Assembly (NCBI RefSeq): GCF_000769075.1
Contig: NZ_JRFC01000047.1
Location: 200 to 64,199, forward strand
Length of the DNA stretch: 64,000 bases
Origin: Porphyromonas sp. COT-290 OH3588
Lineage (GTDB): Bacteria; Bacteroidota; Bacteroidia; Bacteroidales; Porphyromonadaceae
Direction: 5' to 3'
The position numbers were made by a program, and so were the translations under genes. Positions 10,344-43,282 of the stretch are shown here, piece after piece. The notes beneath the pieces were generated by a model that was not told the origin of the DNA, did not search any database, and worked only from the letters and a program-made list of their open reading frames with translations. How positions within the stretch are numbered: the stretch's first letter is position 1; the number at the start of each line of letters is the position of its first letter.

Positions 10344-10422
10344 AAGCAAAGATACCGCAGGAGTTTATGCGGTTTGTTGCGGAACACTTTTTAGTATTTA
10401 ACAATAAATTTCAAAGTCCGTT

Positions 10423-10686
10423 ATGAATAAGACAGAGTTTATCGCTCGTGTGGCAGAGAAGGCTGGGCTAACTAAGGTTGATGCCCAGAAAGCTGTGAAT
10501 GCTTTCGCTGATGTAGTGGCAGAACAGCTCAAGAAGGGCGACAAGGTAGCCCTACTAGGTTTTGGTACTTTCTCTGTAAATGACAAGCCAGCACGCACAG
10601 GTATTAACCCAAAGACCAAGGAAAAGATCAACATCCCAGCTCGTAAGGCTGTAAAGTTCAAACCGGGTTCAGCTCTAGAGATCTAG
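10423..10686 (+). CDS. hup: HU-family nucleoid DNA-binding protein
   Basis: This 87-residue HU protein binds and bends DNA as a dimer. It shows the N-terminal dimerisation helices (MNKTEFIARVAEKAGLTKVDAQ), the GFGTFSV turn and the beta-arm region with KPARTGINPKTKEKI, including the conserved Arg-Asn-Pro-type tip (here GINPKT). The C-terminus VKFKPGSALE is typical. It is monocistronic, with a promoter upstream and a strong terminator downstream. The call as HU rather than IHF rests on overall similarity. Confidence 0.95.
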   Translation: MNKTEFIARVAEKAGLTKVDAQKAVNAFADVVAEQLKKGDKVALLGFGTFSVNDKPARTGINPKTKEKINIPARKAVKFKPGSALEI

Positions 10687-37833: not shown

Positions 37834-39849
37834 CTATTGCTCTGGGACTACGACAAACTCCGTACGTCTATTGAGAGCATCACACACAGCCTGCTGCTCC
37901 TCGCTTAGATTAGCCACAAACTCGGGCGTAAGCTGATCACCCTCTTTGAGGAATGGATACTGCTCTGCCTGCCTCTGAGATACGGTAACGGGTTTTTGCT
38001 GCCCATAACCACGAGATAGCAGTCGCTCCGAGGCGATACCCTGCTCAATGAGGTAGGTCACTACTGACTGCGCTCTGCGTTCGGATAGACGCAGGTTATA
38101 TTCCTGCGCTCCGTGCCTATCGGCATGAGCCGATAGCTCGATGCGGATCTCGGGATTCTCTTGCATGATACGTATCAGCTCCCCTAGAGGCTCGGCACTC
38201 TCGGGCAGTAGCTCCGCACTGTCGAAAGCATAGTACACATGGCGCAGAGCCTCGTGCTCTTCTCGAGAGGCTAGCCGAAAGTCCACAACGTACTGCTCGC
38301 TACGCTGCGCCACCTCTGTGCGGAAACGTGCGTACTGGTTGAGGTAGCCGGGTGCCGAGGCGAGCATCACGTAGCTGACATCGCCCCTAGCTTTGATGCG
38401 GTAGCTACCGTCCTGCTTCGTAGTGGCGACAACCTCCGAGGCATCTTTGCTATTACCCACCAGTCTGACCGTTGCTCCTGCGATTGCATAGTCGTCCCGA
38501 TCCATCACATAGCCTTCAATAATTGTCACAATCTGAGGAAGGGAGAAGTGGTATAAGTGTGGTCTACCTCGCCCGTCATCTCTAGATGAGGAGATAATGC
38601 CTCTTACGGCTAGGCTCTCTTCGTCGGGTCTTTGGTTCAGCCGAGGGTCAAAAGCGATACCAAAATCGTCGGCATGGCTATTGAGGGGCTTCGGCAGTTG
38701 CTGTACATGCCACTGCCCAGAGGGGAGGAGTATGGCCTTGTAGACATCTAGCCCGCCATAGCTTGGGTGTCCGTCCGAGGAGAAATATAATAGGCTATCG
38801 CTCTGGCAGTAGGGGAATAGCTCGTCTGCTGGAGTGTTGATTGGCAAGCCTAGATTCTCCACCGCACCATAGCTATTGTTGTCGATGCTCACACGATAGA
38901 TGTCTTTGCCGCCATAGCCTCCGGAGATGTCGCTCACGAAGAACATAGTCTTGCCACTTGGGCTGATGCTAGGGTGAGCCGCCATGATCGTACTATCACG
39001 CCAAATATCTACCAAATTGCCCTTGCTCCAGCCTTGCTCACCAGATTTACTCGCTCGCCAGATCTGTGCCGTTCGCATATATTGGTCCGATCGCTCGGCT
39101 AGGGTGTAGTACATTGTAGCGCCATCTGCCGTTAGTGACGGAGTACCTTCGTCTGCAAGCGTGTTGAGTGCGCCTACCAACGTGTCAGGCTTGCTCGACC
39201 ATTGCCCATGCTGATCTCTCGACAGACGATACAGATTGCCGTCTAGCTCTCCCGTAATATCGTTTTTATCTCCCTCTCTGCCTCGATTGCTCCCAAAGTA
39301 CAGCTCCGAGCCATCTGGTGCGAAGGCTGGTGCATAGTCACTGGCACTAGAGCTCCAACCATCGGCTCTCTGTAGACGGTACCTCTGTACATCGGCGGTA
39401 TCGGTAAGGGCCAGACGACAGCCTTCTATCCCCACACGTGCCAGATGGCTTAGGCTATCTACAGCCAAGTATCGCTGATAATACTCGATTGCTTCAGGAT
39501 AGGCCTGAGCCATCTGAGTAGCCTGCCCCAGTCTAAGCAAGAGGAGTGAGTCGGGATAGCCATATCGCTCTGCACTGCGGTAGTAGTTGAGTGCTCGTTG
39601 GCTCTGCCTCAAGGTGCGATAAGCCTCTGCCGTATGCCATGCATAGTAGGCTCGTAGCTCTAGAGCTCGTGGCGGAGTACGCCGATAGAGCTGACTATAT
39701 AGCGTGGCAGCACGCAGATATTCACCTCTCGCCTCGGCCTCGGCCGCTTCCTTGCGAGAGGTGCCACAGCTCGTATGGACCAACACTCCAGAGAGCATGA
39801 GCACACCTACGAGATGCTTTGACCAAGATAACCCAATGAAACGATCCAT
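37834..39849 (-). CDS. porE: PorE-type T9SS outer-membrane lipoprotein (TPR, beta-propeller, CRD, OmpA)
   Basis: This 671-residue protein has a lipoprotein signal with lipobox VHTSC (Cys28), then TPR-like repeats (about 35-140), PD40/WD40-like propeller blades (about 165-410, for example APAFAPDGSELYFGSNRG and HPSISPSGKTMFFVSD), a carboxypeptidase-regulatory-like domain (about 440-520) and a C-terminal OmpA domain (about 545-655, ELSAHADRHGAQEYNLRLSERRA) that should bind peptidoglycan. This exact domain order is that of P. gingivalis PorE (PG1058), a component of the type IX secretion system that anchors the complex to the cell wall. Paralogues with the same parts exist, so the ortholog call is strong but not absolute. 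queE lies immediately upstream on the same strand. Confidence 0.85.
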   Translation of the reverse strand: MDRFIGLSWSKHLVGVLMLSGVLVHTSCGTSRKEAAEAEARGEYLRAATLYSQLYRRTPPRALELRAYYAWHTAEAYRTLRQSQRALNYYRSAERYGYPDSLLLLRLGQATQMAQAYPEAIEYYQRYLAVDSLSHLARVGIEGCRLALTDTADVQRYRLQRADGWSSSASDYAPAFAPDGSELYFGSNRGREGDKNDITGELDGNLYRLSRDQHGQWSSKPDTLVGALNTLADEGTPSLTADGATMYYTLAERSDQYMRTAQIWRASKSGEQGWSKGNLVDIWRDSTIMAAHPSISPSGKTMFFVSDISGGYGGKDIYRVSIDNNSYGAVENLGLPINTPADELFPYCQSDSLLYFSSDGHPSYGGLDVYKAILLPSGQWHVQQLPKPLNSHADDFGIAFDPRLNQRPDEESLAVRGIISSSRDDGRGRPHLYHFSLPQIVTIIEGYVMDRDDYAIAGATVRLVGNSKDASEVVATTKQDGSYRIKARGDVSYVMLASAPGYLNQYARFRTEVAQRSEQYVVDFRLASREEHEALRHVYYAFDSAELLPESAEPLGELIRIMQENPEIRIELSAHADRHGAQEYNLRLSERRAQSVVTYLIEQGIASERLLSRGYGQQKPVTVSQRQAEQYPFLKEGDQLTPEFVANLSEEQQAVCDALNRRTEFVVVPEQ

Positions 39850-39861
39850 ATTAACTAAATA

Positions 39862-40455
39862 CTAGCGAATGTCTATGAGCTTATGTGTCTGTAGGCTGAG
39901 CCTCCATTGTGGATGTTTGAGGACGAACTCGACGCAGCGCTCTACCGAGGCTTTGTCTAGCTGCATAGCATCATCGCCCACGAAAATAGGACTAACCAAA
40001 TAGGCCGAGGCCTTGGGGAGCTCCGAGATAGGCGGGGGGAGGGGGCCATCGGCCGAGATAGGGAAGCGGAACTCCGATACGCCCTCGGGGAAACTCTTGT
40101 GTAGTTGCTTCAGAGCCTCTGGCTTAGGGCTACAAGTGATGTAGTCTAGGCCTCGTGGCGGACGACGTGTGCCGTTCGTTTCGATAGCTTGAGTGTATCC
40201 TTTGCTATGAAAAAACTCAACAGCCTGCTCCGAAAGCTGGAGGGTGGGCTCTCCGCCCGTCCAAATGATGAAGCGGGCAGGGTAATCCGCTATGGCCTGC
40301 CAGATCTTCTCTAGACTCATCTCATCGCCGTGGTCGAAGTCTGTATCGCAAAATGAGCAACGCAGATTACACTTGGCCAAACGAATGAAAATGGCAGCCT
40401 TACCCGTATTGATGCCTTCACCCTGAAGGCTATAGAATATCTCGTTAATCAACAT
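39862..40455 (-). CDS. queE: 7-carboxy-7-deazaguanine synthase (radical SAM)
   Basis: QueE converts carboxy-tetrahydropterin to 7-carboxy-7-deazaguanine in queuosine synthesis. The 197-residue protein begins MLINEIFYSLQGEG, the family start, and has the radical-SAM cluster motif with Cys29, Cys33 and Cys36 (CNLRCSFC) followed by DTDFD. The SAM-binding GGEP motif is present as WTGGEPTL. FolE at 23.5 kb provides the upstream pterin. The porE gene starts 13 bp downstream; co-transcription is possible. The palindrome array at 40.5-40.8 kb lies directly upstream of this gene. Confidence 0.95.
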   Translation of the reverse strand: MLINEIFYSLQGEGINTGKAAIFIRLAKCNLRCSFCDTDFDHGDEMSLEKIWQAIADYPARFIIWTGGEPTLQLSEQAVEFFHSKGYTQAIETNGTRRPPRGLDYITCSPKPEALKQLHKSFPEGVSEFRFPISADGPLPPPISELPKASAYLVSPIFVGDDAMQLDKASVERCVEFVLKHPQWRLSLQTHKLIDIR

Positions 40456-41227
40456 AGTCCTACAAAGATATGGGATATCCGAGCATCAATCGCATGCTTG
40501 GAGCTATTTTGTCATAGGTAGGTGATGTCACTGACGACAAAAAACTTGCTTTTAGACGTCTGAAAAGTTTTGTTGAGACGTCTAAAAACTTCGGTTAAGA
40601 CGTCTCAATTCTACTAACCAAGCCTTGAAATATACATCTCAAATCTTGAAATATATAACTCAAACCTCGAAATATATATTTCCAGCCTTGAAATGTAATT
40701 TTGAGACGTCTCAATCGAACTTTTGAGACGTCTCAACGAAAGTTTTTAGACGTCTAAACAGATGTTTTATGACGACTCAACTTACCACAACATAATACTA
40801 GGGATTTGGCTACTGCAGAGTAGAGCGATACGAAGCATTATCTCAGCGGTTACATTGGCTTAGACCTATGGGGGCGAACAAGTGTGTTGATTGGGAGAGG
40901 AATATGGCAGCTCCAAGTATCTTATACGTGCTGGAAGGATTTGCACAAACGTATAAGAGTGGGCGCTATAAAGGCTCCGATAAATCGGTAGGACAGATAT
41001 ACGTCGCCTAATATGCTTGATAGATCGGGCTTATAGAGCCTAATGAGTCTTAGGAGAGATGTGTGTTATCGGCCAGAGTGTAGCAGGTGAGCAAGCGTTA
41101 GCTCGCAAGGACCTCAATCAATAGTCGTATATTAATTGAACATAACGCCTGTTATAAATTTATATATCTGATATACAATATCATATATTGCATTCCTTAT
41201 TATATATACCTACGCCTGCGATGGAGA
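40456..41227. other. Intergenic region of about 770 bp with a palindrome array
   Basis: No gene is visible. A possible -7 element (TATCTTTG on the - strand, 40470-40463) lies 8 bp before queE. The array of phased palindromes occupies 40532-40777. From 40780 to 41227 I see only AT-rich, unrecognised sequence. Confidence 0.7.
40532..40777. repeat. Array of 12 helically phased palindromes with mirror-image arms
   Basis: Left arm: four 22-bp units starting at 40532 (degenerate TGACGACA), 40554, 40576 and 40598, the last three with AGACGTCT. Centre: four 21-bp units starting CTTGAAATATA or variants at 40624, 40645, 40666 and 40687, each around a GAAATATATATTTC-like palindrome. Right arm: four 22-bp units at 40704, 40726, 40748 and 40770 (the last degenerate, TGACGACT), reading as the left unit on the opposite strand (AGACGTCTAAAAACTT...). 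Centre-to-centre spacings are 22, 22, 22, 32, 21, 21, 21, 11, 22, 22 and 22 bp. Confidence 0.92.
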
Positions 41228-43282
41228 TTAGAGGCGTTCGCTTTCCGTTGTCCCAGCGGCTCCGCCTCGGTACTTCTTAGTCTTGGTATTATTAAATCGG
41301 TAACTGACAGACAAACTTAGGTCGGGATAATCGGAATTAACTAGATGATATAGCTGGCCTGCTCGTGCGGCTAATCGGTACTCTTCTTGGCCAGTAGTCA
41401 GCATATCGTCAGCTCTCAAAGTGATGCTCCAGTGCCTGCCGATGCTTTTAGACACGGAGGTATCAATCTGCCAAACGTTGTAGAGCTTCTTGGAGAGCTG
41501 ACTGCCTCCTATGGCTCCACTTAACCCAACGGTGCATACGATACCCCAAGGCAGATTGATGAGATTGTCCCAGCTGGCCTCTATTGTTGGCCTATGTGGG
41601 TAGCCCTTGGCAATGTACCACACGCTAGAGAGCGTCCACGAGGGTTGCCACACCTCCCAATTGGGGGTATAAGCCAACTGAGCCCGATAGATCTGAGCAT
41701 CAATGTTTTTGTGGATAAGCATCAAACTGCTATTGTAGTAAGGGTGTCGCTCAATATCCTCCATCTGCAAATCCTCTGCTACCTGACCGCTTAGCTCAAG
41801 ACTGAGGTCGTGATAGCTGGCTCCTAACGTCAAAGTGTGATCGACACGAGGCCGTAAGAGTGGATTGCCCGCTTCTAGTGCATACTCGTGGACGTATAGA
41901 GCCGAGTTTTGTAGCCATCGATAGCTAGGGCGTGTGACGGCGGAGCTATATTGCAGAGAGAGGGCTCCATCACTATGCGAATAGGTAATGCCAGCAGACG
42001 GAAGCAAATACCATGTGCGACGTACAGCAATCTCTCGGTCAGTCTGCATGTCTTTCGTCCTCTGTTGTGTTTGCTCGAGACGAATGCCTAGATGAGCAGC
42101 ATAATGCTCTGCGAAACTATTGGACCAATGAGCATAGACCGAGTTGCTGCGTTCTAGATTCAGCTGCTGGCTATTGGGGAGTAGCCTTAGAGCTTCTGGG
42201 GTTAATGTCTTGGCTTGTTGGTTGATTTGGCTCAAGTTGCCGTCCCACCCCAGCTGGATATTCCCCCATTGGTCCGATCGCTCTGCGTATATCCTCCAAG
42301 CCAATACTTGCCCAAGCGTTGAGTATTGTGCTTCAATACTACGTGTCGCAGGAGCAGGCTTGAGGTCCTTTACTATGGCAGAGAGCTGACTATTCGCTTG
42401 ATTATAGATGTAGCTACCCTCAGCGTGCAGCGTCCACTCCGATGCGATTAGAGCGTGGTAGTAGCCGTTTATCTTGTGATTGGTGTGTGGTCGTATCAAT
42501 GCATTGACCTTCTCGGCTTGGTAGCTCCGACGGAGGATATCGCTCGGCTTCACTGTAGCCTCAATAGCTCTAGTCTGTGAGCTGGTTGCCTCTCTGTGGT
42601 AGCGGTAGCTTAGACCGAATTCTTGCCCTACACGAGGTTGGTAGACCAAGTCTGTATAGGCATCGTAGCCGATCTCTCGATCCTCGCCTTGCGCCTTTGC
42701 TTCATTGATCAGATTGTCAATGGCTATTTCGTTGTCTTGCTCAAAGTTGTTGGTGCGGCCATAAGTACTTCCCGAGATCTTTAGGCTGAGCTTGTCGCTA
42801 TGCCAATAGAGCTCTCCAAGGGTATTGTACCCCATCTCTTGCTGTTTAAGTAGATCCATGCCAACGTATCCTCCCAAGTTATTGTCAGTTTGCTTCTTAG
42901 GGACAATCCGTATGGCGGCACGAGCAGGTGTGTTGGCACTAAACTCATCGTTCATGACAAGCTCTATGCGCTCAATCTCCTTGGGGCTAATGTGCTCGAG
43001 ATCTCCTCGATCAATCCTTCGTCCTGCGAAATACAGACTAGGCTCTCCCCCACCCTGAATCCGAAGGCTATTGGCGGAGGCTTCTACCAAAGGAAATTGG
43101 TCGAGCACCTGCCACAGTCGAGGCAGATGCGCCAAAGGGGTATCTACAACATGACGGACTAATCGCCCCTGCTCGATCTCTCGGTTTGTCCCTCTGTGCA
43201 GGAGCACCTGTGCATCGACAGAGGTTGCGCCCAAGCCGATACAAGTCATAGCAAGGCTTAGCTTACGGACAACAGCTTTCAT
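41228..43282 (-). CDS. Outer-membrane beta-barrel protein with plug-like domain
   Basis: The 684-residue protein has a signal peptide (about 1-24, cut near VDAQ), a short TonB-plug-like domain (about 50-145, LRIQGGGEPSLYFAGRRIDRGDLEHISPKEIERIELV) and a barrel of many amphipathic strands to the C-terminus (LSLSVSYRFNNTKTKKYRGG). It lacks a CarboxypepD domain and has no SusD partner. It resembles OMP_b-brl_3 proteins of Bacteroidetes and may import a nutrient or metal complex; the substrate is not known. It precedes nothing closely on its 3' side except the long gap with the palindrome array. Confidence 0.8.
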   Translation of the reverse strand: MKAVVRKLSLAMTCIGLGATSVDAQVLLHRGTNREIEQGRLVRHVVDTPLAHLPRLWQVLDQFPLVEASANSLRIQGGGEPSLYFAGRRIDRGDLEHISPKEIERIELVMNDEFSANTPARAAIRIVPKKQTDNNLGGYVGMDLLKQQEMGYNTLGELYWHSDKLSLKISGSTYGRTNNFEQDNEIAIDNLINEAKAQGEDREIGYDAYTDLVYQPRVGQEFGLSYRYHREATSSQTRAIEATVKPSDILRRSYQAEKVNALIRPHTNHKINGYYHALIASEWTLHAEGSYIYNQANSQLSAIVKDLKPAPATRSIEAQYSTLGQVLAWRIYAERSDQWGNIQLGWDGNLSQINQQAKTLTPEALRLLPNSQQLNLERSNSVYAHWSNSFAEHYAAHLGIRLEQTQQRTKDMQTDREIAVRRTWYLLPSAGITYSHSDGALSLQYSSAVTRPSYRWLQNSALYVHEYALEAGNPLLRPRVDHTLTLGASYHDLSLELSGQVAEDLQMEDIERHPYYNSSLMLIHKNIDAQIYRAQLAYTPNWEVWQPSWTLSSVWYIAKGYPHRPTIEASWDNLINLPWGIVCTVGLSGAIGGSQLSKKLYNVWQIDTSVSKSIGRHWSITLRADDMLTTGQEEYRLAARAGQLYHLVNSDYPDLSLSVSYRFNNTKTKKYRGGAAGTTESERL

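Follow-up and report, generated by a model that had tools for sequence, protein, structure and literature searches.

The window, a stretch of 64,000 nucleotides from Porphyromonas sp. COT-290 OH3588, contains an intergenic array of phased palindromes between an open reading frame that we take to be queE-like and a second frame, presumably an outer-membrane receptor-like gene (Table 1). Behind the queE-like gene lies a frame that we assume to be porE-like, encoding an OmpA-like lipoprotein. The sequence TATCTTTG, in front of the queE-like gene, presumably fits the -7 consensus TAnnTTTG, and the sister locus L021 has identical letters at this element. The array sits upstream of this likely queE promoter.

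Table 1. Genes, promoter element and parts of the palindrome array, in window coordinates
Feature	Position	Strand	Basis and remarks
OmpA-like lipoprotein gene	37834..39849	-	ORF
queE-like gene	39862..40455	-	ORF and homologs; downstream of array
-7 promoter element of queE, TATCTTTG	40463..40470	-	likely; inferred from sequence
Composite phased palindrome array	40528..40781	.	mirror-symmetric about 40654
Left arm	40528..40608	.	AGACGTCT palindromes, 22-bp pitch; centres 40535 (decayed), 40557, 40579, 40601
Core	40605..40703	.	GAAATATATATTTC-type palindromes, 21-bp pitch; centres 40633, 40654 (dyad), 40675, 40696
Right arm	40700..40781	.	mirror copy; AGACGTCT centres 40707, 40729, 40751, 40773 (last decayed)
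Outer-membrane receptor-like gene	41228..43282	-	ORF; array beyond its 3' end

A preliminary description of this DNA had reported noncoding palindromes in 22-, 21- and 22-bp units at 40532-40777 with inverted arms, and our analysis reproduced each of these elements, with centres given as "after base" positions. TRF gave periods of 22, 21 and 22 for the three unit blocks, the centres were again spaced 22, 22, 22, 32, 21, 21, 21, 11, 22, 22 and 22 bp apart, the two 120-nt halves were 75% complementary without a gap, and no ORF of at least 60 aa overlapped the array. At least four of seven pairs were formed in 11 of the 12 palindromes. The statement that the outermost units are degenerate was borne out at the left end, where the palindrome at 40535 is the one exception, and the outermost right palindrome has just 4/7 pairs. 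The best four-site chain comprised 25 of 28 pairs at a pitch of 22 bp, compared to a maximum of 20 in 500 dinucleotide shuffles of the region. With at least four palindromes at a constant pitch of 21-23 bp in intergenic DNA, the array falls within the class surveyed below.

The core palindromes can also be read on an alternate axis, CAAGCCTTG, and the left arm carries AAAACTT/AAAAGTT marks between its palindromes at -114, -92 and -70 from the dyad. The symmetry of the array suggests that there may be a further, very decayed core centre at 40612, perhaps a lost unit at -42. If this unit is allowed, the odd spacings of 32 and 11 bp vanish (32 = 11+21) and the whole array is then symmetric about its dyad, with sites at 0, ±21, ±42, ±53, ±75, ±97 and ±119 bp, of which those at ±119 and -42 are decayed.

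Related loci and a class of phased arrays in the genus

Blastn among 26 genomes of the genus returned matches to the array in only its own genome (G000), where similar sequence is found at C6, C23, C12 and C13, and in the sister species G018. Parts of the array are thus common to four more own-genome loci and to two orthologous loci of G018, the queE locus L021 and the HU-like locus L022. Six loci of the two species carry the core (the window, L017, L018, L019, L021 and L022), and all have mirror-image flanks, with 120-nt arm identities of 0.54-0.75 compared to at most 0.47 in shuffles. In 12/12 arms of these loci, a motif composed only after the alignment had been seen, A[AT]A[AG][GC]T[TC], occurs 70 bp from the dyad; 10/12 arms have it at 92 and/or 114 bp. 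At L017 (C6), a second composite locus, AGACGTCT-type sites stand on one side at -53, -75, -97 and -119, as in the window. The preliminary description had held that homologous loci without phasing or palindromes would count against a conserved functional element; the related loci largely retain both. Across the genus, the array is not a general feature of queE, as only 3 of 23 queE loci examined (25 were found, two of them too short) had a chain scoring at least 19 at a pitch of 21-23 bp, namely those of G000, G018 and G013. L025 and L026, which gave the impression of arrays by eye, were below threshold and were left out of all counts.

For the wider class, we surveyed parts of five genomes of the genus, 1.68 Mb in all including the window, and did not use the window sequence as a query. 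Intergenic tandem-repeat rows of at least 2.5 copies, with overlapping rows counted apart, had periods of 21-23 bp in 12/12 cases in the own genome, 39/42 in G016, 16/19 in G011, 6/10 in G013 and 32/110 in G025, in which many heptamer and other repeats are present. Perfect 12-bp palindromes were too strict as a detector and were replaced by chains of four palindromes of seven pairs each at constant pitch. At a score of at least 22, this palindrome-only detector matched 31 intergenic regions in the five genomes, 29 at a pitch of 21-23 bp and 2 at 33 bp, and found nothing in three shuffles per region or in 1.44 Mb of coding DNA.

The palindromes themselves vary by genome, examples being GAGGGATATCCCTC and AAGTTATATAACTT in G016, ACCTATATAGGT and ACCAGTACTGGT in G011, ACCTACGGTAGGT at 23 bp in G013 and TTCCAACCTTGGAA in G025. 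Across 15 arrays that lie upstream of the HU-HIG genes considered below, the majority base accounted for 0.73-0.94 per unit column in the palindrome vs. 0.49-0.71 in the outer spacer. Composite arrays also occur elsewhere, as at L124 in G025, where three units of one palindrome are followed by three of another. We make no claim on gene geometry, since 7/66 arrays vs. 96/544 gaps were located between convergent genes (p=0.17). Of 139 double changes inside arrays, 103 were complementary, a figure that we do not count as evidence because the detector selects palindromes and thereby biases it.

Two other repeat populations were seen. A separate 21-bp family, CTTCGGAGGAATCAAATGAAA, mostly of 2.5-3.5 copies, occupies many intergenic sites in 400 kb of G025 (L106-L125), and it and the heptamer arrays of that genome differ from the majority of palindrome-class arrays. 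Unrelated phyla (L048-L085) also have rows of AGACGTCT at 21-23 bp, with examples from Verrucomicrobia, Kiritimatiellae, Sorangium, Saprospiraceae and Tannerella-like MAGs; their spacers differ and some are possibly coding.

Arrays upstream of HU-HIG genes

Two of the own-genome copies are directly upstream of HU-like genes. When the upstream regions of nine HU-like genes (including two already recognised as arrays) were inspected by eye, most contained 21-23 bp rows, and 7/7 proteins tested belonged to the HU-HIG family (PF18291), scoring above the curated cut-off of 26.2 bits. At least one HU-HIG gene is present in 26/26 genus genomes; among 60 sampled genomes of the order, 9 gave strong matches, with up to 18 in one genome.

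We scored the best four-site chain within 400 bp upstream of each gene, allowing pitches of 15-40 bp and applying a threshold of at least 19. In a discovery set of six genomes, which contains the few genes from which the HU-HIG idea first arose, an array was located upstream of 19 of 35 HU-HIG genes, in every case at a pitch of 21-23 bp; the own genome contributed 4 of 8. These 35 came from 36 matches, L230 being left out as a short, mis-sliced locus, and L247 offered only 315 bp of upstream sequence. None of 12 canonical HU genes had an upstream array. The controls L234 and L258 have starts that are off by a few codons. The loci L236 and L312 contain N runs. A canonical HU-type match within the window itself (10405-10677), weak to the PF18291 profile and without an upstream array, served as one control.

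In a held-out set from G006 and G012 (20 genes from 21 matches, one with an in-frame stop being excluded), 12 of 20 HU-HIG genes passed, again all at 21-23 bp, and the count was equal at 400 and 550 bp. Arrays at this pitch were found upstream of 67/1620 other genes, with another 72/1620 at other pitches; the proportion was 53/485 when the background was restricted to gaps of at least 200 bp, and 88/1606 at 550 bp upstream. The held-out enrichment was significant by Fisher's test against both the full background (p=6e-12 vs. 67/1620) and the restricted one (p=4e-7 vs. 53/485). Both sets remained enriched after three G016 genes with identical scores and a G006 pair with an identical array were each counted singly (17/33 in the discovery set, p=1e-14 vs. 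background; 11/19 in the held-out set, p=2e-6 vs. gaps of at least 200 bp). Among 20 HU-HIG genes from other families of the order, hand-picked out of 60 non-own matches, 5 had an array at 21-23 bp (p=0.001) and 2 had one at other pitches. HU-HIG genes whose upstream region was below threshold numbered 16/35 in the discovery set, 8/20 in the held-out set and, for a pitch of 21-23 bp, 15/20 in the other families. The three G016 genes (G016:C1:562677, 1225201 and 2091038) share one profile score, resemble one another in their chain scores upstream, and look as if they were recently duplicated or mobile.

Palindromes upstream of individual HU-HIG genes

Both palindrome types of the window's composite recur upstream of individual HU-HIG genes. 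AGACGTCT at 22 bp, the palindrome and pitch of the arms, precedes the gene G000:C13:135212, and GAAATATATATTTC-like palindromes at 21 bp, as in the core, precede G000:C12:31422. The window's right arm matched the array of the C13 gene with r=0.92, and the second composite, L017, matched that of the C12 gene with r=0.95. Among 26 genus genomes, a single one contained pairs of AGACGTCT spaced 20-24 bp apart, and these were confined to two places, the C13 HU-HIG promoter and the window. The sister genome G018 yielded no close relative of the C13 protein (the best is 52% identical), and its queE locus has no AGACGTCT arm palindromes, whereas the core is retained at that locus and the C12 protein has a 69% relative in that genome. 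The absence of a C13 relative is not certain, because the G018 genome is 92% complete.

The C13 protein consists of an HU domain and a Gly/Ser tail, and in the C12 protein the HU domain is accompanied, perhaps, by a winged helix at the C terminus (a Pfam match below cut-off). The C13 protein alone, used as a query, matched no PDB sequence; a model of its 98% relative (mean pLDDT 69.9) weakly resembled HU/IHF chains (best E 8e-3, prob 1.00).

A similar correspondence was seen for dispersed arrays. When HU-HIG arrays with a chain score of at least 17 were admitted, 21/52 dispersed arrays matched (r>=0.8) a palindrome found upstream of an HU-HIG gene in the same genome, compared to 6/312 in cross-genome comparisons, and same-genome matching of this extent was reached by 1/5000 label permutations, a count that possibly includes the unpermuted order. 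The 52 exclude one HU-HIG gene's own array and 12 arrays from G025, G001 and G014, genomes without an HU-HIG array. The most abundant G016 family (GAGGGATATCCCTC) has no counterpart among the HU-HIG arrays of that genome, and G025 has ten arrays but a single HU-HIG gene, which itself lacks one; accordingly, 31/52 comparable dispersed arrays had no same-genome HU-HIG match. Across 400 kb of G016 (L126-L145), about 15 arrays of GAGGGATATCCCTC/CTGAGGGATATCCCTCAG at 22 bp matched no G016 HU-HIG upstream array.

Protein and site similarity were weakly correlated (Mantel rho 0.20, 48/2000 permutations). All four protein pairs with at least 90% identity had a site similarity of 0.97-0.98, while all four pairs at 81-89% identity had unlike sites (r 0.20-0.51), and like sites (0.94 each) recurred in two more distant pairs, at 79% and 45% identity. 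Because like and unlike sites scatter in this way across pairs from 45% to over 90% identity, HU-HIG site specificity seems to change fast, though not simply with protein distance. In Prevotella pallens, the prediction of an AGACGTCT array next to a C13-like gene failed, as none of five AGACGTCT-pattern loci was near any of its seven C13-like genes; of the HU-HIG family, the search there covered relatives of the C13 protein. At L207 (G078, another family of the order), the encoded HU-HIG protein shares 77% identity with the C13 protein but the palindrome, by eye, is a different one, AAACCCTCGAGGGTTT, which suggests lateral transfer with retargeting.

Since the arm and core palindromes also precede the C13 and C12 genes, we propose that the element is a phased palindrome array that probably serves as a composite operator for these two HU-HIG (DNABII/HU-like) proteins. 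The preliminary description had listed a multi-site array for a dimeric protein among its readings; that reading is the best supported and now has two candidate binders, though the array's place upstream of queE is not shared by the genus as a whole. No sign of a role in partition emerged. Alternatively, the arrays could be operators of some other dimeric regulator family, with HU-HIG genes merely frequent targets. The GAGGGATATCCCTC arrays of G016 and the ten arrays of G025 that lack an HU-HIG partner would fit such a regulator, as would the other genes with an upstream array (67/1620), and PF18291 may miss some HU-like relatives. However, HU-HIG paralogs mostly have their own palindromes (the four pairs at 90% identity or more share theirs), a pattern that one outside regulator does not predict and that weakens this explanation; the confinement of AGACGTCT pairs within the genus to the genome with the C13 gene also speaks against it. 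We consider it unlikely.

Possible functions and relation to known elements

A nucleic-acid foldback, either a transcribed multi-hairpin (an attenuator or mRNA stabiliser) or a cruciform, is a less probable reading still. The RNA fold in the window reached -94.8 kcal/mol (z -13.3) and six other arrays gave z scores of -5.0 to -8.8, but any row of palindromes folds well, and a hairpin requires no exact pitch of 21-23 bp. Mirrored (complementary) spacers were significant (p<=0.05) in 8/20 HU-HIG-linked and 15/64 dispersed arrays, where about 5% would be expected, yet in 61 of the 84 arrays (23/84 being at p<=0.05) they were not significant. In addition, the best Rfam score was 45 bits vs. a gathering cut-off of 195, so that no family was matched, and the array would lie outside the queE transcript because the likely queE promoter is between it and the gene.

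That the element is a BrickBuilt-type MITE or selfish minisatellite without function is very improbable: several intergenic copies per genome with inverted arms and 21-23 bp units recall the 23-nt units inside a MITE described for P. gingivalis BrickBuilt (PMC4596501), but the BrickBuilt terminal repeat (GAGACCTTTGCA/TGCAAAGGTCTC) is absent near the element (6 window matches with at most 2 mismatches vs. 5.3 expected, none within 9 kb of the array), the spacers differ among copies by eye, the queE locus is shared with G018 so that the array's place is kept across two species, and a selfish repeat leaves the HU-HIG link unexplained. At 82-93 of the window, the IS5-type terminal repeat GAGACCTTTGCA recurs with one mismatch, perhaps as an insertion-sequence end or by chance.

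In the published account, BrickBuilt elements consist of 23-nt direct repeats with a leader and tail and IS5-type terminal repeats within a MITE, and BrickBuilt_14 adjoins a PF00216 (HU) gene (Table 1 of PMC4596501). The main text of that account does not use the word "palindrome" (PMC4596501). The arrays here resemble BrickBuilt in being intergenic, multi-copy tandem units of near-equal length in what is likely the same genus, and differ in their periods of 22, 21 and 22 as opposed to a 23-nt unit. The BrickBuilt rows, one of which adjoins an HU gene, may be members of the phased-array class. The BrickBuilt minisatellite/MITE is the nearest described element. The preliminary description knew of no described element of this design, and our search of titles and abstract openings likewise found neither phased arrays of palindromes nor targets of HU-HIG proteins described, but the element belongs to a class and is not a singleton.

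Among protein-bound arrays, the Fis UAS of rrn promoters, ArgR box pairs and iterons are known phased operators. These also have sites near whole helical turns apart, lie upstream of promoters and are often autoregulatory, whereas the rows described here contain four to ten palindromes, which vary between species, and are tied to a multi-copy HU-like family. Canonical HU is largely indifferent to sequence, and IHF sites are not known to form palindromic arrays. Cooperative DNABII (HU/IHF) complexes are comparable in that the candidate binders have an HU-type domain and homodimers suit palindromes, but the present arrays are palindromic, phased and mostly paralog-specific. Burroughs et al. 2017 reportedly described an expansion of HU-HIG in Bacteroidetes, with many paralogs per genome of this same family, as we see here, and are said to have proposed a role in the recognition of invading DNA; to our knowledge, no DNA target or array was named there, and we know of no DNA target for HU-HIG proteins.

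If the arrays are HU-HIG operators, each homodimer would read one palindrome, and dimers at the two-turn pitch would contact each other along one helical face and bind cooperatively; a constant pitch with freer spacers would suit such neighbour contacts. Where an array precedes the gene of the protein that reads it, it would set the level of that protein by autoregulation, while dispersed arrays such as that of the window would be targets, forming a regulon or local nucleoid structure. At queE, the C12 protein would hold the 21-bp core, and perhaps also the AAAAGTT marks of the arms, and the C13 protein would occupy the AGACGTCT arms. The joint effect of the two proteins would be to wrap or bend some 250 bp immediately ahead of the likely queE promoter and to modulate queE and the gene behind it.

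To a broader picture we give an even chance: Porphyromonas-like bacteria would possess diversifying HU-like proteins, each with a private palindrome in rows at the two-turn pitch. Such a histone-like, paralog-specific intergenic address code would change its letters between species and keep its pitch constant, and the window would represent two codes interleaved in one mirror-symmetric nucleoprotein scaffold. Were the arrays indeed HU-HIG operators, many protein-site pairs would be predictable from sequence and testable at once. If this is true, much of a puzzling class of intergenic repeats would be explained, and in a DNABII fold whose palindromic specificity can be switched, a nucleoid-type protein would have a new route to acting as a regulator.
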